The notes under the pieces: generated by a model | Seen by the model: only the letters and a program-made list of their open reading frames with translations | What the model was told of the DNA's origin: nothing | The model's database searches: none | Translations under genes and position numbers: made by a program | Assembly: GCA_963924555.1 (NCBI GenBank) | Contig: OZ004582.1 | Location: forward strand, 6,262,001-6,326,000 | DNA length: 64,000 bases | Origin: Crambe crambe | Taxonomy: Eukaryota > Porifera > Demospongiae > Poecilosclerida > Crambeidae | Direction of reading: 5' to 3' | In this document: one piece after another, positions 2,257-62,100 of the stretch | Numbering within the stretch: the stretch's first letter is position 1 | Layout of the letters: each line of letters begins with the position of its first letter

Positions 2257-4762
2257 CAGTTAAATACGTATGCCGAATTATCAGAATCAGAAGCACTGTT
2301 ACGATAGCATTGAAGAGGATTGGTACTAAGAGTATGTAGAATACGATCTCCCTGTTGAACGTACCACAAAATGGATTATAAGAGACGGACACAAATCCCA
2401 GTCCACCTGATAAAAAAGTAACGTTATTCCTGATAAGGAACTCATTGCTCCCCACAGCCACAGCAAAGTCAGCCATGACTGCAATTACTGGTGCAAGGGG
2501 GAGCAGAAGGCCAACAATGACACATCTTCTGTGAATATACTTGATCCTTTTTGACTTTGCCACTTGTCGGGCATGGAAGGGAAAGAAGATCTTCCAGAAG
2601 AAGGCAGAGATGTAAAACATCCACCAGAGAGAAATTTGAGGCAAGGTATATAAGAACACCATTCCTGCAATTCATCAAATTAGCTTTTATTTATTGCTGC
2701 TAAAGAATATTTTCCACATTGGCAAGTACTGTAGCTAATAGTTCAATAAAGTTCAGTAACAAGAGATCACCAAACTCAAGAACCACACAAGCTAACTGTT
2801 GAATCACTCCATTTAGGATAGTTAGCATTGATCTTGACCTTTTCTGCTATTAGGAGCTAGCTATGCCTTAATTCAGATCTTGCAACAGTTTTAGATCTTG
2901 GGGCATCAAAAAAGTCTTGATTCAAAAACAACATAATTATGAAAAGCATGCCTGCCCACCACGTTCAGGCTGTGCGCACAAGGGGGATCCTTTACCAACT
3001 TGTGTTTGCTAATATGGATCATTGCAGAGCAGAACATTGCAGAGATTTGCAGAGCAGACCACTTTGCTTGCACTTCTCAGCTTCCATACAAATCAGTATT
3101 TTTATAATGAAGTTAGAAGTATAATAATAATCATTGCAGTGAAATCTACATCCTTTAATGCAACCACACAGTATAGCACATTTTCTGAATCCTACTGGAA
3201 TCTGTGTAATCAGACCACCCTATAGCTAATTATATAGACCACCTTTCACTCCATGTTTCTATTCTGATATTCGACTTCCCTAGCTAAAGTCTAAGCCTCA
3301 AGTTTCGTTGTAGCTTAGCTGCACTGCCAGACAACATGCAATTTATTACCTGATATCACACAGAATGGTGTACTTGTCACTCTACTGATGAAGAAGTTAT
3401 GTGAAGAACAGAGGAGTGAAGGTTCATGGAGCGAAATCAATTTAAATATTTCTGCAATGCATAGACATCATGATGATAATTAAAATTAATTCAGCAAGCG
3501 AGCGAGCTCATGACTCATTGAAATTGTATATATTCTACATTCCAAAATGCTCCAGGCATATGTATGTGTCGATCATGCAATAGTAGCATCCTGCGTGCAC
3601 ACTCTAATTGTAATTGCTTTATTGAGCCTCTCTGGATAGCTAATAATATATATTATGTGATAGTACTTGAGAAAAGGGGTCTTATCCGCAAAAATTCAAA
3701 ACGGAGTTATTGGTATCATTCTAAAGCTCAGTTATACTTAATTGAATTTTACATCTCATGTACATTTTATATGTAGCTTGTAAACTTTACAAGTGTTTAA
3801 CAGCTTTTAATGTTTTGCGTGATAAGACCCCTTTTCTCAAGTACTATCACATAATATAGCTACATTCTATAACACATAAATGAATATCAGCTCTAAAAGC
3901 CTATAGCTATAGATATACTTGCTCGCTCACTATAAAAATTAATGTTGGACATTGCCCTGGTAAATAAGCTCTTGTGAGGTGGTAGGTGTGGGTGAGGTGG
4001 TAGGTGTGGGTGAGGTGGTAGGTGTGGGTGAGGTGGTAGGTGTGGGTGAGGTGGTAGGTGTGGGTGAGGTGGTAGGTGTGGGTGAGGTGGTAGGTGTGGG
4101 TGAGGTGGTAGGTGTGGGTGAGGTGGTAGGTGTGGGTGAGGTGGTAGGTGTGGGTGAGGTGGTAGGTGTGGGTGAGGTGGTAGGTGTGGGTGAGGTGGTA
4201 GGTGTGGGTGAGGTGGTAGGTGTGGGTGAGGTGGTAGGTGTGGGTGAGGTGGTAGGTGTGGGTGAGGTGGTAGGTGTGGGTGAGGTGGTAGGTGTGGGTG
4301 AGGTGGTAGGTGTGGGTGAGGTGGTAGGTGTGGGTGAGGTGGTAGGTGTGGGTGAGGTGGTAGGTGTGGGTGAGGTGGTAGGTGTGGGTGAGGTGGTAGG
4401 TGTGGGTGAGGGGGGGTGTGGGTGAGGGGGGGAATGTTCTGCTATAGATAGCTGTCCTTGACTCACCAATAATCAGAAGGTCAGTGGCTATATAAACCAC
4501 AAATGCTGATGGAAAGGTGAGCCTGTAGAATAATTTAGATTCATAATACAATAATGCCTCTTGCCAAAAAATACATGTAGCTACTATGCATGTGTGTGAT
4601 ACTGTAGCAATCAAAAAAACATTCTTACTTCAGCTCATCATATATAATTACAAGTAGACTTGCATGAACACGAGAGAAGTTTGAAATGATTTCATTAAGG
4701 CATGTCTGAGAAATGGCTAGAAATGGCTGGACATGGAAAGATTCCAAAGCTATCTTGTCAGT

Positions 4763-37048: not shown

Positions 37049-39590
37049 CACGGGTAATTCTATACCTCGACGATATGTTGATCTTAGCACAACACAAGGA
37101 AGAAATAAGAATCCATCTAGCCTCAGCCCTGGAGCTGTTTGTCTCCTTGGGATTCATCATCAATATCAAGAGAAGCATCTTCACCCCCACACAGGAACTG
37201 GAGTTCCTAGGATTCAACCTAAATTCCCAACATTTCTCTACCAGGGCACAAATTGCATTCAATAAGGAAGGTAGCCAGGAGGGTGATGGAACAGAAGGAA
37301 GCACCAATCAGAGAGATAGCACGCCTACTGGGGCCAGCCCCATTGCATTCAGATAGTTGGAGAGGGGGAAAGTGAGAGCGCTCACATAGGCGAAGGAAAC
37401 AGGGGGGCACTGGGGGCACATGCCCCCCCCCCCCCACATTTTGTGGACTGGGGGCACAGGGGGCATGCATATTGCAACAAATGCATTTAAATAGTGTCTT
37501 TTTATTACACCTTCATAAGGATAAAACTGATAACATCAACTTAACGAAAGTAGCACATGAATTTATATTAGTTAATGAGAGAAGGAAAAAAAATTTTTGA
37601 TTATAATAATTTTCCCCAATCATCCCCCTAAAATACATACTCTTCTCACAGCAGCCTTTGGCTGCACGTTTGTTGTGCCCCCCCCCCCCCCCCCCCCCCC
37701 CCAGTCAAAGACATCTTCCTTCACCCATGGCTCAGTCAGGGCCAATCCTACGATCAAGTGATGCTCTTGGAGCCAAAGATGATCATGGAGTTATCGTGGT
37801 GGGTGACAATCCCAGCTCAACACAACGGAAGACCTCTACAGATATTGTCATGGGACTTGACTATCGAGTCCAATGCGTCGAAAACCGATTGAGCAGTTTA
37901 TCAAGGCAAAACCACAGGGGGTCCTTGGATAAGTCAGGAACAATCACTTCATATCAACCTTCTAGATTGATGGCAGCCTTCTTGGCACTCAAGTCCTTTG
38001 TAAAGAGAGAAAAAAGCTCTCAGTCCTCTTCCGACTGGACATTATCACGTTATCACGGCCATCGCATTCATCAACAAAATGGGTGGCACCCACTCCAGGC
38101 AATTATCAGAACTGGCAGTGGAGATATGGGATTGGTGCATAGAAAGGGAGATGATGATACATGCAGAACACCTTCCGGGAACAGAGAACATCCAAGCAGA
38201 CTGGCACTCACAACACCTCTCGGACTCCAGCGATTGGATGCTGCAACCAGAAAATAGAGGAGAGACTAGGCCCATTTTCAATCGACCTTTTTGCTTCTCG
38301 CACCAACCATCAACTACCAGTCTATTGCAGTTGGAAGCCGGACCCCATGGCATTTACAGTGGATGCTCTGTCAATCACTTGGAAGGATCGTCGATCATCC
38401 ATACATGTTCCCTCCATTCTCCCTAATTCCACAGTGCCTCAGGAAGATAGAGGAGGAGGAAGTCCAGGCAGTTCTAATGGCGCCAGTATGGCCCAATCCT
38501 CTGATGCATATGATTGCCTGATACAGGCCACGCGGCTAATGGATGTCCTTCGGTCACCATTGGATGAATCGATCCATCTGGACTTGTTAGGATGTCCTGA
38601 GTATGAGGAAGTAGAATTGGGAGTGTGATCAGGGTCCCGAGCAATTTGAGGGTACCACTTCTGGACTTTCTGACTGTGTTATCAACATCATCAGGAGCAC
38701 TTGGAGTGCTGCCTGGAAACTGTGGGTTGGCTGGTGTTCTCAACGGAACATTAATCCCCTTTCAGCTCCTCTGAGGGATATTCTAGAATTTTTATCTGAA
38801 CAATTCGATTCGGGAAAAAAGTACCGAACAATTAACTCTCTACGGTCTGCAATTTCGATGACTCACCAGGAACTGGATGGAGTGCGTATTGGGCAACACC
38901 CCCTAGTGATACGATTCCTAAAAGGTGTGTTTAATAGCTGACCCCCAGCTCCCAGATATACTGCCACCTGGGATGTGGATATTGTTTTAAACTATATTAT
39001 GAGAGGTCTTCCTAAGAATGAAGATCTCAGATTCCAAGCCTTATCTCATAAACCATGACATTAGCTAATGCAGACAAATGTTCAGATCTGGCAGCACTGG
39101 ACATAGGCCATTTCTATACTCAAATCAATGGTGTCAAATTTATTATACCTGATAGCTATGACTAAAACCAGGAGGACTGGACGACCAATTGAGGCTTTCT
39201 ATCCAGCCTTTGCAGAGGAACCCAGTTTATGTCCAGTCAAGACATTAAACATTTATAAGGCAAGATCCAAGCCCTTATGAGTGATCAAACCTGGTTCTAG
39301 AAACCCACTATTCATCTCTGTACAAAAACCACACAAACCAGTTAAAGCGGCGACAATTGGCCATTGGCTCAAAAAAGTCATGGTGTGGACACTAATGTCT
39401 TCTCTGCACACTCAACTAGAGGAGCGACCACATCAAAGGCCCACAAAGTAGGAGTTGCAACGGCAGATATTCTCCGGGCTGCAAATTGGACCAGTACATC
39501 TACATTTTGTTGATTCTATTGTAGACCAGTCCTACGAGGACAATTTGGTCAAGAAGTATTGAGACAACACCAAAATTGGTAAGCTTCCCA
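37049..39590 (+). mobile_element. DIRS-like retroelement remnant (RT, RNase H, tyrosine recombinase)
   Basis: The fragment starts inside a reverse transcriptase (ILYLDDMLILAQHKEEI with the Y-x-DD core, then LEFLGFNLNSQ, 37036-37260). After an A/C-rich interruption with a 25-nt C run (37678-37702) it continues with RNase H-type sequence: AFINKMGGTHSRQL, IHAEHLPGTENIQADWHSQH and LGPFSIDLFASRTNHQLP (38060-38310). It ends with tyrosine-recombinase sequence: RPIEAFYPAFAEEPSLCP, then FSAHSTRGATTSKAHKVGVA and DILRAANWTSTSTF (39180-39515). RT plus RNase H followed by a tyrosine recombinase is the hallmark of DIRS elements. Many stops show it is dead. The pogo element end lies at its 5' side. Confidence 0.7.
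37678..37702. repeat. Poly-C tract, 25 nt
   Basis: Uninterrupted C run inside the DIRS-like remnant; a 13-nt C run lies nearby at 37423-37435. Confidence 0.95.
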
Positions 39591-42070: not shown

Positions 42071-42462
42071 GGCAGCAATTACCTGGACTATATCAATTGT
42101 ACCACAAATATTCAGAACTTTGTAGTGAATATCAACCAGAACCCAACCACAGCAGTGGAAAAGGAACTTGTTACTGATATACAATTTTAATGTTTTTCTT
42201 GTTTCTTTTTTAAAAATATTTCTCAACACTTGGGCACCATCAATAAATTTCCAGGGCTTGATATAAAACTGTCTAGACAGGCAGGCCTAATACATTCCAG
42301 GTAGATGTACTATAAAATTCAATTGGACATGTCATAATACAGTCTATTTCACCACCTTTGCAACGGGCGACTAAGCGGTCTCTAAACCACAGTTTACACA
42401 ATGACATTTCTCTGCTATTGTGTCTTTGACCACGTGCTGAAGGTGTGCATTAATAAAGCTTG

Positions 42463-43533
42463 ATGGATAGACAAAAAACTAGTGAAGAAGTCAGTGGATA
42501 CCCAGGTACCTTTAACTATCAGTGGGGTTATTATCAACCTCAGGTATCCTATCAACCTCAAGTATCCATCTCCTCTTGCCCTGTTGCTCATGGCTATGCT
42601 CAGAGTCCAGATCAGGTGGGTGTGCTATATAGCTATTTACTTTACTGTCACATGCCTTTTCTAGCTATAGGCTACAGCTAGCACCTAGCAGGCCAATAGT
42701 AACTAGCTGGCTATAGTGGAATGGATATTTTTTCTTGTCAAAACTATCAGGTTGGGCCCTCAGAAGCTAAGAAGTACAAGTATTTGGTGCGATTTGTTAA
42801 TCCTGATCAGAAAAGTCAATATGTCACCAAAATTTGGCACAATGAGCATAGCAAGTTTAAGTCCATCAGCCATCTGAAACAAAGCTTGTGTGAGAGTTTT
42901 GAGGATAAGCTAAATGGATCTGAAAATTTTGTGTGTGGCTATTTGGATAAAGCTTCAAAGCGATGGATAGAAGATGATCAAGATCTTGAAGCCATGTATC
43001 AATTATTCAAGAATCGTGATTGTGATGTGACACTCTGGTGTATAGCTGAAAAACGTGGTAAAAAGCGAAAAATTGAGGAATCAGAAGAGGCAGCACCAAC
43101 CAAACGTGCATCAAAGGAAGATCAAGTGGATGCAATGGCAATGGAACTACGTGAGAAGCATGGTGAAAAGTACGATTTTAGACAGCTACAGCTCTGGGCT
43201 CGTATGAAACTCAATGGTCAACATACTAGCTTGGAACACCCTCCCTGTATTCCATTCTTTAGTGGAGCTAATGTTAAGCCTGCTAAGAGGGAATCTTTGA
43301 GTGATGCTCTAACTAGTGCAGCTACTGCTGTAGTAGGTATTTTAAAAGGAAAGTCTGATAATTTACCCACAGAAGGTACTATGTCTCCAGGGAAACGTGC
43401 TCAAGTTTCAGGCCAATACCTGGAGCAATTGGAAAAACTTCTAAAATTGCAGGAGTCAGGTGCGCTAACTGCTTCCGAGTTTGAGGAACAGAAAGAAATA
43501 ACACTTGCCAACCTCAAACAACTCAATGCGTAA
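42463..43533 (+). CDS. Transposon accessory protein, ubiquitin/PB1-like plus SHOCT-like, 311 aa
   Basis: Two exons, 42463-42615 and 42751-43533, join in phase 0 across a 135-bp intron (donor CAG|gtgggt, acceptor aactatcag). Residues 1-51 are Tyr/Gln-rich (NYQWGYYQPQ). Residues about 57-150 look like a small alpha/beta domain of the ubiquitin/PB1 kind: YLVRFVNPDQ, then GYLDKASKRWIEDDQDLEAM and DVTLWC. A basic stretch KRGKKRKIEE and PTKR (about 152-170) is a likely nuclear signal. A conserved-looking block KYDFRQLQLWARMKLNGQHT follows (about 191-211). The last 40 residues, LEQLEKLLKLQESGALTASE with FEEQKEITL, match the SHOCT pattern (short amphipathic helices with G-x-(I/L)-T-x-x-E-F). The gene lies inside the transposon TIRs, so a role in transposition, targeting or silencing escape is inferred only. 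Confidence 0.7.
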
Positions 43534-43662
43534 CTCAAAGAACTCGTGTAATAATTCAAACTCCTGTGTAATAATTCAATGTGTAAGTCAACATTCAAAC
43601 CATTATTTTATTATGCATACTGATTCCATCATTGTACTGAGCTTGCTAGTATACTCAAACTA

Positions 43663-43835
43663 TTATGTGTATCCACTGTGTTCCATCCAATTTTGGCAGT
43701 CATTTGCTGTGATCATTGCAAATGATGCTTCTATTATGTAATCAATTTCCGAATCATTGGCTATTTGAACCAATGAGTCATTTGCTCTTAATAAACTTTT
43801 GACTTTTGAAAAACATTCCTCTATGGGATTCAAAT

Positions 43836-43873
<38 letters not shown>

Positions 43874-44683
43874 ATAAGGTGGCAGGTAGATCAATAGTGC
43901 TCCAGTTGATTCTATGAGAGATTCAACTTCCGGTACGTGGTGAATACTGGCGTTGTCTAGAATAACAACACTATTTCTATTGATCCCATTGAATGGAAGT
44001 AGTAGAGGCAGAAGTTTACGTTCTACAAACTCATAAAATAAGTCCCCATCTACACTTTGCTTAGTGATTGAAATGTCTAAGATCCCATCGATACCCATGG
44101 CACTTATTACTGAATGCCTCTTCCCTCTCACAAGCACTTTCTCAGTGATTGCTTGCTCCCCTTTCAAAGCATACCCATACTTACGTAAAGATGACCTCTT
44201 GTCAGTACCTGTTTCATCTACAAATATGAGCATTTCTGGTTCGTACACAGTCATTTCAGTCTTAAACTTTGTTCGTAGCTCATCACTTCTCTGCTGTGCT
44301 CTAAATGCTAGTTTCTTGTGTGAGAAATTGTTTTTATGTAAAAGTTTACATATATTGGCAGTGCTTATGTCTGTGCCAGTCAACTGCTGGAGATGGTGCT
44401 TTAATTCATGCAAATAGATAGCAGGGTTCTCCACTACAGCTGTCAGTATAACAGCTTCATCACGTGGAGTTAGCTTCTTCTGTGGCTTTTCCCTGTAGCC
44501 TTGAATACTGCACACTGTCCCTGTTTCTTCAAAGAGATTTACAACTCTGTACACAGTAGATTTATCAACATTAAGATGCCTAGCTATTTCAGGGTAGGGC
44601 AGTCTTAGGAGACATCTCTGATAGACCATTCTCCACCTTAAATCACTAGAGTAAGCCTTTGATCTTTCAGATTGCATAGACAT
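43663..44683 (-). pseudogene. IS630/Tc1-type DD34E transposase, out of frame at a poly-C run
   Basis: The start is at 44683, just inside the right TIR. Residues 14-60 form a helix-turn-helix (PYPEIARHLNVDKSTVYRVV). The DDE domain shows D156 in FVDETGTD and D243 in VVILDNASIHH. The third motif begins IYLPPYSP and is then split by the poly-C run (43837-43872 as G on plus). After the run the expected continuation DLNPIEECFSKVKSLL is present, but in another frame, and runs to a stop at 43663-43665. The spacing from D243 to the Glu would be 34 residues, as in Tc1 and IS630. The run has 36 nt; a length of 2 plus a multiple of 3 would keep frame, so the copy is out by one base. A sequencing error in the homopolymer is a real alternative. 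Confidence 0.85.
43837..43872. repeat. Poly-G tract, 36 nt, inside transposase gene
   Basis: Uninterrupted G run on plus (poly-C in the coding sense) between the codons for Tyr-Ser-Pro and Asp-Leu-Asn of the catalytic motif. Confidence 0.97.
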
Positions 44684-44832
44684 CTTAAACTATAACAGCA
44701 CTGTCAATATTTGAATCTGGTGCCCCAAGTGAGGTCATGAGTTCACTGGTGCATTCCAGGGGTAAGGATTGTGTAAACTGTGGTTTAGGGCTTCTGGAAG
44801 TCCTGGTTGCAAAGGTGGTGAAACAGACTGTA

Positions 44833-59106: not shown

Positions 59107-59124
59107 CTAATTATACTGACTCAC

Positions 59125-62100
59125 AGTTGAATACTATCAAAACCAGAAGAACTGTTCCAACAGCATTGAGGATGATTGGCAGTAAAAGCATGTAGAATAC
59201 AATCTCCCTGTTGAATGTACCACAGAATGGATTATAAGAGATCGAGGATACAAAGCCCAGTCCACCTGATATAAACGTAACGTTATTTCTTATAAGAAAC
59301 TCATTGCTCCCCACAGCCACAGCAAAGTCAGCCATGACTGCAATTACTGGCACAAGTGGGAGCAGAAGGCCAGCAATGACACATATTCTGTGGATACACT
59401 TGATCCTTTTTGACTTTGCCACTTGTTGAGCATGGAAGGGAAAGAAGATTTTCCAAAAGAAGGCAGAGATAAGAAACACCAACCAGAGGGAGATTTGAGG
59501 CATGGTATATAAGAATATCATTCCTGCAATTTGTTAATAATCATAGTAATTGTATTGCTGCTAAAATCATTCCACATCATATATATTTGAATGGACAGAG
59601 GTAGCTACAAGAATTTAATGTGTGGATACTTTAACTACGTAGCTAATAATTATAAGCTTGAATACTAATAATTAGCTACGCACTTCACCATAAATAATTT
59701 TCATATACTGACAAGTGCATGAGAATATAATATTTTAACAACTAAAAATGAAAGGAGCATTAAATTAAGTAGCTTGATGGCTAATTCAATGGATTCCCTG
59801 AGGTCTATATTGCAGTGAAATCTGCATCCTTTAATGTGACCACCATCACACTGTGTATATTTTCTGAGTCCTATTGTACGTAACACTAACAGTGAAACCT
59901 GTGTAGATATTAAGATTCCAACATGTCTTTATACAGCACCTATTATGCTATTAAGATGTCCCTATAGCTAAAGTCTAAGCATAGATATAAGAGGTTTTAC
60001 GGGATTGGAAATGCCCAATGAACTGCACAACCGTGACGCGTTGACAGATGTGCACGCGCATGCAGCATTAATTATATTATTGGTTGTGAAAAGAGATCAA
60101 TATTCACTCCTTTCAAGGCAGTTAAAGTGATGTTCTGCCCCTACAGCTCACAGAATAGTACAAGTAAGCTAAGAGGAAGGTATTGAAGAAGTGAAGAGTC
60201 AGAGAGTTGAAGTTGGAGAGTCTGAGGAAGGAAGTTATTATTCATAACTTTTTCCTTGTAGCTAATTATAACTATGAGTACCTATCATTGCTCGATCATT
60301 ATACATTAATTTTATGTGATTGATTTGAAAGAAAGGCCAGAATGACTTTTGGTATTAAAATTAGACATAGATTCATTATTATTATAGCTAGATAATTTTG
60401 CCCCAAAGTTATCCGCCAGTTTCTGCTCAGTTCTCCCTCATCAGCATTATTGCAATACTTCCAGCTTTTGGCTGTTGGATTTTGACACCATCCACCTCAA
60501 GAATTCAGCTCAGTCATCCTGTGGACCCTATGGATATTAGGGGGGAAATATAGTAAGCTTCCCATCTCCATAGGATGACTATTGTATAGAAAACAAATGC
60601 ACCAATTCCATTTACTGTTCTATCCTTTCCCTGAAATAACTAATACAGTTGCAATATTGTTAATCTATTTCTTGGGAGAGGGATTACAGTTTTAACATCA
60701 CTTGCAAATGCTAGAGACAATATAATTATGTCAGCTAATAAAAAAACTATTCCATGTAGCTAAAGTTTACATGCCTTTTGATCAGAAAATGGGCAACGGC
60801 AATTGATTCCATCAAGTGTGAGAGGGAATACAGTCCCATTAACCACTACAGTAGTATTTGTAGGAAATAAACTTGAAATTCTGAGCTAAAATTTATTTCA
60901 TACAGTAAATCTATGTCCTAGCTAGTGTATTATAGTATCATTGGCATAAGTCTTACCTCATGGATCTTGTCAGAACAGCAACTTTGACGAAAGTGCTATG
61001 TCATTCAGCTGTCAACGCGCCTCGGTTGTTAGTTGCTAACGAGAGCACGTGATCCGTTTCCAATCCCGTAAACCTCTTATATCTATGGTCTAAGAGATCA
61101 CCTCCCTCCATGCACTCATTATGTATAGGTCTACATGCCTGGAGGCAGTTTAATACCTGATATCACACAGAATGGTGTACTTCTCACTCTACTGATGAGG
61201 ACATTATGTGAAGGACAGAAGAGTGAAGGTCCATGGAGTGATATCAGTGCGAAAATTTCTGCAATAGATATAATAGCTAAAGACATCATGCAAATAGTTA
61301 TATCTGATAGTACGTGAGAAAGGGGTCTTAGCTATGTGCAAAACATTAAAAGCTGTATAGCTAACTCAGGAATAAAATGGTGTATAAATTTGATTAAAAA
61401 TCATATAAATCTCCAGATTAGAATGATACTAATAACTCCATTTTGAATTCTTGCTCCATAGCTATAAGACCTCTTTTCTCCAGTACTATCAAATGAAATA
61501 CTAATAGGATGTAGATGTCTTTAACAGATGGAGGAGAGGGTAATTGCTCCTCTCTCTCCCCACTCCCATTATAATAACTATATTAGTGTAAGTAGTTATT
61601 TTCAATTAGTGATTGGGCAAGGTGGGGAACCCCCTACTTGGCCCAACATGTCATACCAAGAATCAGGTATCTCTTGGTGGAGGTATAGCTAGTACTGAAT
61701 GTGAACTGTACAATAGTAGGGAGGAGGGAGAAAATATCTTTCACTGATGGGTCTGGCTATCAAGCTGCTTAACTTCAGGCTAAATACTTGATGATTGATG
61801 ACCAGTGTCTCTATAGTATACAAAACCATGCAACATACAGGATATCCTGCAGGGTAACCCCACCTCCATTTAACCACTGCTTAATTTTTTTTCATTTAAT
61901 TGATCAGCTTTCACCACACAGGCAGCAGGAGCCTATTCTCAATAATCATGAAATAGTGGGTAAGGTGGGGGTTCTAGCTGTCCTTGACTCACCAATAATC
62001 AGAAGGTCAGCAGCTATATAAACCACTGATGCAGATGGAAAGCTGAGGAGAAAGATATACAGTAGATAGATAGTTTGAGTAGCTTATTAGCTATTTAATT

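Follow-up and report, generated by a model that had tools for sequence, protein, structure and literature searches.

Two-gene IS630/Tc1-type elements of the sponge Crambe crambe that carry a partner gene with PB1-like and SHOCT-like parts

Tc1/mariner elements are the classic example of transposons whose transposase suffices on its own, and gene-delivery tools are built on them. More complex relatives are described in ciliates, where the Tc1/mariner elements TBE, Tec, Sardine, Thon, and Anchois carry extra open reading frames (ORFs), including a 22-kD ORF in reverse orientation in TBE; in the excerpts consulted, these ORFs are of unassigned function, or correspond to a 57-kD zinc-finger/kinase protein or to tyrosine recombinases. 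Harbinger, in turn, is presented in such excerpts as a two-gene element whose Myb-like partner shows lower conservation than the transposase and overall congruence with it, and is reported to import the transposase into the nucleus (for ciliates and Harbinger together, excerpts of PMC4724952, PMC3464196, PMC7325037, PMC9179366, PMC3158080, and PMC8533490). The locus considered here lies in a 64,000-nucleotide stretch of the genome of the sponge Crambe crambe (assembly GCA_963924555.1, contig OZ004582.1, positions 6,262,001 to 6,326,000, forward strand; this whole stretch is called the window), and is one degraded member of a clade of IS630/Tc1-type elements that is diverse and has been mobile in recent times. 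The usual content of the clade is a DDE transposase and a partner protein with a PB1-like domain, a basic nuclear localization signal (NLS), and a SHOCT-like tail, encoded by convergent genes within TA-flanked terminal inverted repeats (TIRs).

The sponge elements share with the transposase-only IS630/Tc1-mariner elements, of the Tc1 or Sleeping Beauty type, the TA target, the TIRs, and a transposase with helix-turn-helix (HTH) and DDE_3 domains, and differ from them in the extra conserved convergent gene, a partner lying within 3 kb at 101 of 127 transposase loci. A previous sequence-only reading of the window had stated that Tc1/mariner elements normally encode the transposase alone, which holds as the usual situation but not for the multi-ORF elements of ciliates, as far as the excerpts describe them; extra ORFs in Tc1/mariner elements are, therefore, a kind already known. 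The ciliate elements likewise combine a Tc1/mariner-type DDE transposase with extra ORFs, although no PB1 or SHOCT part is named for the latter in the excerpts, the comparison being one of descriptions. Harbinger, according to the same kind of partial source, resembles the sponge elements in having two genes and a partner that is less conserved than, and congruent with, the transposase; the sponge elements depart from it in their PB1-like/SHOCT partner without Myb/SANT, their DDE_3 transposase, and their TA target. Among the matches listed in CC-licensed PMC literature, Repbase being outside the search, none describes an IS630/Tc1 clade with a PB1-SHOCT partner.

In the window copy, the TA flanks, the 63-bp TIRs starting with CAGTCT, and the two convergent genes inside them are all present as the sequence-only reading had proposed (Table 1). 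The TIRs pair in two arms, one of 30 nt at 93% and the other of 21 nt at 100%, and the local alignment of both ends covers 68 columns at 85% identity, with a score of 75 versus 30 or less in ten shuffles; the partner is encoded on the plus strand and the transposase on the minus strand. A TIR search of the genome also locates the TIR of the window copy at places on C3 (the contig of the window), C10, and C9.

The association of both genes is a general feature of the host genome (G000; 143 Mb in 119 contigs), in which the window queries gave at least 138 transposase and at least 146 partner matches; merged with those of a second query pair, they correspond to at least 127 transposase and at least 141 partner loci, fragments included. 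A partner lies within 3 kb at the 101 paired transposase loci (93 convergent, 7 tandem, and 1 divergent), with a median gap of 238 bp over all pairs and 235 bp over the convergent ones; the random placement of loci (200 runs, with guessed sizes for three contigs) yields a mean of 1.67 pairs and a maximum of 7. This pairing and the joint movement of both genes support the earlier proposal that the partner is part of the element, and the two observations that had been named as contrary to it, transposases always devoid of the second gene and a single-copy host orthologue of the partner, were sought, the outcome being the pairing described and the at least 141 partner loci.

A hand-picked set of seven of the 26 transposases without a partner was opened: a clear decayed partner is present on the expected side in four (L076, L078, L079, and L081), a weak partner trace in L075 (profile E 0.0021) and L080 (tblastn E 0.002), and no trace in L077, whose own transposase frame is short. 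At a further unpaired transposase locus, C1:581057, a SHOCT match lies at a distance of 58 bp. Among the eight unpaired partners examined, out of 37, six lie beside transposase remnants (C3:4267271, C3:4300902, C6:6060610, C9:1675783, C5:4804893, and C3:9512251), one (C9:2900622) is bounded by TIRs of 86 bp that are 95% identical, without a transposase being found in it, and at C3:4138265 neither TIRs nor transposase were found. Regarding DDE_3, 111 of the 150 matches listed overlap the transposase loci of the clade; the other 39 comprise nine beside a partner or SHOCT match, two adjoining known loci, and 28 with no listed partner within 3 kb, three of which (L095–L097) were read and belong to another Tc1 type. 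Some peculiarities of distribution were also observed. C11 holds 26 transposase loci of the clade between about 1.6 and 3.8 Mb, 23 of them on the minus strand and tens of kb apart, 14 without a listed partner, perhaps a large tandem or segmental array; C3 is enriched in both partner (38 of 141) and transposase (21 of 127) loci; and at two sites on C13 (4276307–4277268 and 4333943–4335296) the partner match stands in tandem to, and not convergent with, a divergent DDE_3 match.

Mobility was analyzed in 45 element groups drawn from 44 genome stretches. A TIR pair whose score exceeds that of the best of ten shuffles by 5 or more is present in 31 groups, 19 of which have TAC-type starts at both ends; by the same shuffle test, no clear TIR pair was found in the other 14. 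Over 2,282 bp that take in both genes, the copies C16:4190594 and C5:9087508 match without a single difference, and their similarity ends at the TA; a trio on C10, C19, and C8 (2.55 kb, 99% identity) likewise diverges at the TA, indicating that both genes have recently moved together; other compared copy pairs break less cleanly, some of them within the element. The dS values are bimodal, 0.05 or less within subfamilies and 1.28 or more between them, and no useful dN/dS can be derived, since the copies are either near-identical or saturated. For the 11 lineages in which both frames are available, the distance matrix of the partner has a correlation of 0.85 with that of the transposase (0 of 10,000 permutations), and 8 of the 11 have the same nearest neighbour in both proteins; between nearest neighbours, the partners diverge more than the transposases. 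No prokaryote or virus relative was detected with a five-member partner alignment in viral and genome contigs, and none with the transposase in a single scan of genome contigs, scans of this kind reaching only close relatives or conserved words.

The transposase of the window copy matches DDE_3 (1.2e-20) and HTH_23 in Pfam, and IS630 in NCBIfam (123 bits, cut-off 100), a model above its cut-off in the three transposases tried. The DD34E transposase of the sequence-only reading stands as to its DDE_3/IS630 identity but not as to the complete triad in this copy, since in the assembled sequence the part that contains NPIEE, and with it the third catalytic acid, falls in a different frame, beyond a run of 36 Gs; the spacing of 34 was counted by eye in one relative, L003. 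The G run may derive from slippage or from an assembly error, and has 5 Gs in the sister copy C3:184762, on the same contig, whose matches omit query residues 24–41 and 172–227. In a transposase alignment of 25 rows (17 non-redundant), DDE_3 is matched in all 25 and HTH_23 in 22, and among the 25 of 29 matching families shown there is no Harbinger catalytic model, HTH_Tnp_4 matching five members. Two further copies found through their TIRs are degraded, that of C10 (C10:5825791) with stops within the transposase matches, and that of C9 (C9:1675563; 1,255 bp) with transposase remnants only; thus, no intact transposase was seen among the four copies (window, C3:184762, C10:5825791, and C9:1675563).

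For the partner, the 311-aa two-exon protein proposed previously is a plausible model, of which exon 2 is secure, while exon 1, and hence the length of 311 aa, is tentative: its ATG frame requires a run of six As where the C10 and C9 copies, themselves degraded, have seven, and the stretch is deleted in C3:184762. An ATG-headed in-frame N-terminus, seemingly intron-free, occurs at C16:3995333, C3:3075390, C8:2763066, C5:4879791, and C6:747938; other lineages, including that of the window copy, need an upstream exon. Stop-free partner frames were obtained in 34 of 44 cases, some of them truncated. A short N-terminal motif similar to RRVxVTPLxP was noticed by eye upstream of the partner core in about five lineages (L046, L030, L025, L029, and L051), whose N-termini have little else in common.

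Eighteen partners, including the window copy, were aligned, 17 of them below 90% identity. The partner begins with a linker, followed by the PB1-like domain, the basic NLS, the LWARM region, which is helical, and the SHOCT tail; the 18 sequences align across the PB1-like core, the basic stretch, the LWARM...PPxxP region, and the C-terminal tail. The SHOCT-like tail claimed from the sequence alone is borne out by Pfam matches in 13 of the 18 members at E ≤0.1 (best 1.6e-6; window copy below the cut-off), and by its genomic context, as 37 of the 39 SHOCT matches listed genome-wide (21 above the cut-off) lie in partner loci and the other two are convergent beside DDE_3 matches. The predicted nuclear signal was also recovered, as a basic NLS-like motif in all 18 partners, 17 of them at one aligned place; without near-duplicates, it is found in 17 of 17 partners versus 8.9 in shuffles, and is, therefore, above chance, the figure for the transposases being 3 of 17 (3.8 in shuffles). 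No Myb family appeared among the Pfam matches of the 18 partners at E ≤0.1. In the LWARM region, a similarity to 8-oxoguanine glycosylase was considered and discarded, the PDB match of 35 aa (E 0.0067) being too short to use.

The PB1-like character of the proposed Ub/PB1-like region is supported. The N-domain of the window copy, modelled alone, shows an EEHEEHE order (mean pLDDT 57), and when the top 1000 Foldseek matches were compared with a second structural aligner, the titles of 21 of the best 24 rows named PB1, NPB1, or phox domain, and those left (9ejl, 4ic7, and 2dyb) are presumably PB1-domain proteins; these 24 rows have Z scores from 9.3 to 7.7, where values below 8 may mean little, and identities of 5–14%. 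Pfam PB1 exceeds its cut-off (23.6 bits) in two partner loci (25.8 and 24.8 bits) and falls just below it in a third, all of them retrieved by a PB1 search, and in an alignment of 18 N-domains it is matched in four (best 1e-5), the best two being L089 and L090, which were included because of their PB1 match. PB1 domains are marked by a basic residue in strand 1, an acidic OPCA motif, or both. All 18 N-domains have K/R in strand 1 and D in the OPCA-like region, and 11 an acidic residue after GY. The likeness to PB1 proteins such as PKCiota, NBR1, p62, and Cdc24 concerns, then, the secondary-structure order, the best structural matches, the strand-1 K/R, and the D close to the OPCA place; the low identity and the incomplete acidic residue after GY set the partners apart. 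A PB1-like fold of the partner N-domain may be regarded as well supported by these models and residues, short of a confident model. The profile of this domain has a weak match with a host PB1 profile (probability 16, E 0.0016), and its single PDB match, of 19 positions, is irrelevant. In the genome, 11 of 14 PB1 matches lie outside the partner family, and a cluster of PB1 matches occurs at C12:5.58–5.93 Mb, in open frames of 251–308 aa, four of which were read and are near-identical.

Regarding the role of the partner, we consider it about an even chance that it is a Harbinger-like transposition co-factor, serving as nuclear adaptor and assembly factor in a clade of two-gene IS630/Tc1 elements. 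PB1 and SHOCT are assembly modules. Working in the manner of the Myb-like protein of Harbinger, though not itself such a protein, the partner would bind the transposase and supply the nuclear signal, and its PB1-like domain and SHOCT tail would gather transposase subunits into the end-pairing complex; in an alternative step, it would tether the transposition complex to chromatin. By analogy, import of the transposase by the partner is a reasonable assumption. Several results weigh against the co-factor role. The partner structure models have low pLDDT values (53 and 57), Foldseek with the N-domain model returned nothing at E ≤0.001 despite the frequent PB1 entries in its list, and in the 18 aligned partners, not selected for PB1, Pfam PB1 matches only L025, below the cut-off (E 0.0099), and not the window copy. 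No DNA-binding domain was recognised in the partners (Pfam on the 18, and NCBIfam). The NLS motif is about as frequent in the transposases as in shuffles, so its depletion is unsupported, and among three Tc1 transposases of this genome that lack a partner, two being near-identical to each other, just one has the motif; its absence is, therefore, not diagnostic of the two-gene clade. Moreover, only 3 of 8 tree splits are common to partner and transposase in the 11 lineages, and L075 keeps a 344-aa transposase frame beside a trace of the SHOCT tail only. A rather improbable variant is that the partner is a p62-like self-polymerising scaffold, whose PB1 domain, and perhaps SHOCT, would assemble into filaments or foci in the nucleus, where the transposase is concentrated and the two ends are joined; we know of no Tc1/mariner element that builds its transposition complex in this way.

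Accessory proteins of some plant elements counter host silencing. A partner acting similarly, as an anti-silencing or chromatin regulator that shields the element from the host outside the transpososome, is unlikely, even though its basic nuclear signal and interaction modules, without a recognised DNA-binding domain, and its greater divergence between nearest neighbours would be compatible with this role; no silencing antagonist was matched in Pfam or NCBIfam, and the rate of divergence does not discriminate, because the Myb-like partner of Harbinger, in the excerpts available, is also less conserved than its transposase. It is likewise rather doubtful that the partner restrains its own element, lowering transposase activity and keeping copy number low. 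The many lineages with few copies each, reflected in the dS distribution, agree with such a function, and the assembly modules could sequester subunits or the convergent transcripts interfere, but a pure repressor would be less likely to be kept in so many lineages, and the host may be the cause of the low copy number. That the partner is a captured host gene, carried along without contributing to transposition, seems very improbable: PB1 matches do exist outside the partner family, but the partner is present across lineages with saturated dS and co-varies with the transposase, SHOCT is unlisted elsewhere in the genome, and no host orthologue was seen, with eight of the 37 unpaired partner loci examined. 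Two of the 31 TIR pairs, spanning 3.7 and 4.3 kb (C10:4574291 and C15:6360372), look like the ends of outer nested repeats, as would be expected if unrelated elements had become nested or adjacent by accident; the chance of this is negligible, however, such an association being already refuted by the closely spaced convergent pairs of the census and by the two-gene copy identical at two sites.

Elsewhere in the window, frames at 37610–38625 recall by eye pieces of retroelement RNase H, two similar membrane-protein-like frames near the window ends (2246–2671 and 59114–59533) appear adhesion-GPCR-like by eye, and a tandem-repeat tract at 3896–4629 is open in several frames.

Table 1. Features of the IS630/Tc1-type element copy, in window positions.
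Feature	Position	Strand	Basis or remark
Element, two convergent genes between TIRs	42340..44830		TA-flanked IS630/Tc1-type
TA target-site dinucleotide, left	42338..42339	n/a	sequence
Left TIR, about 63 bp, CAGTCT start	42340..42402	+	arm pairing and end alignment
Partner exon 1, tentative, low-complexity N-terminus	42463..42615	+	start unconserved in three sister copies
Proposed GT-AG intron, 135 bp	42616..42750	+	sequence
Partner exon 2, 260 aa and stop	42751..43533	+	aligned with 17 other copies
PB1-like (beta-grasp) domain	42763..43062	+	EEHEEHE order (low pLDDT), structural comparison
Basic NLS-like stretch KRGKKRK	43051..43071	+	basic motif at equal aligned place in 17/18 partners
Conserved helical LWARM...PPxxPxF region	43114..43245	+	alignment, structure model
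SHOCT-like C-terminal module	43423..43497	+	Pfam SHOCT E 0.036, under its cut-off
C-terminal transposase part, out of frame (NPIEECFSKVK...)	43663..43833	-	compared with the transposase alignment
IS630/Tc1-type transposase ORF, HTH and first two catalytic aspartates	43778..44683	-	end translated through the G run
36-G run, breaks the transposase frame in this copy	43837..43872	n/a	sequence; 5 Gs in sister copy
Right TIR	44768..44830	-	arm pairing and end alignment
TA target-site dinucleotide, right	44831..44832	n/a	sequence

For the genome of Crambe crambe, these data imply that gene models bearing SHOCT are likely transposon genes. For the family, a clade that keeps a modular partner across deeply diverged lineages makes it possible to test whether some such transposases depend on a co-factor, and, if the co-factor role is true, these elements would join Harbinger as another type of system in which a transposase works with a nuclear partner.
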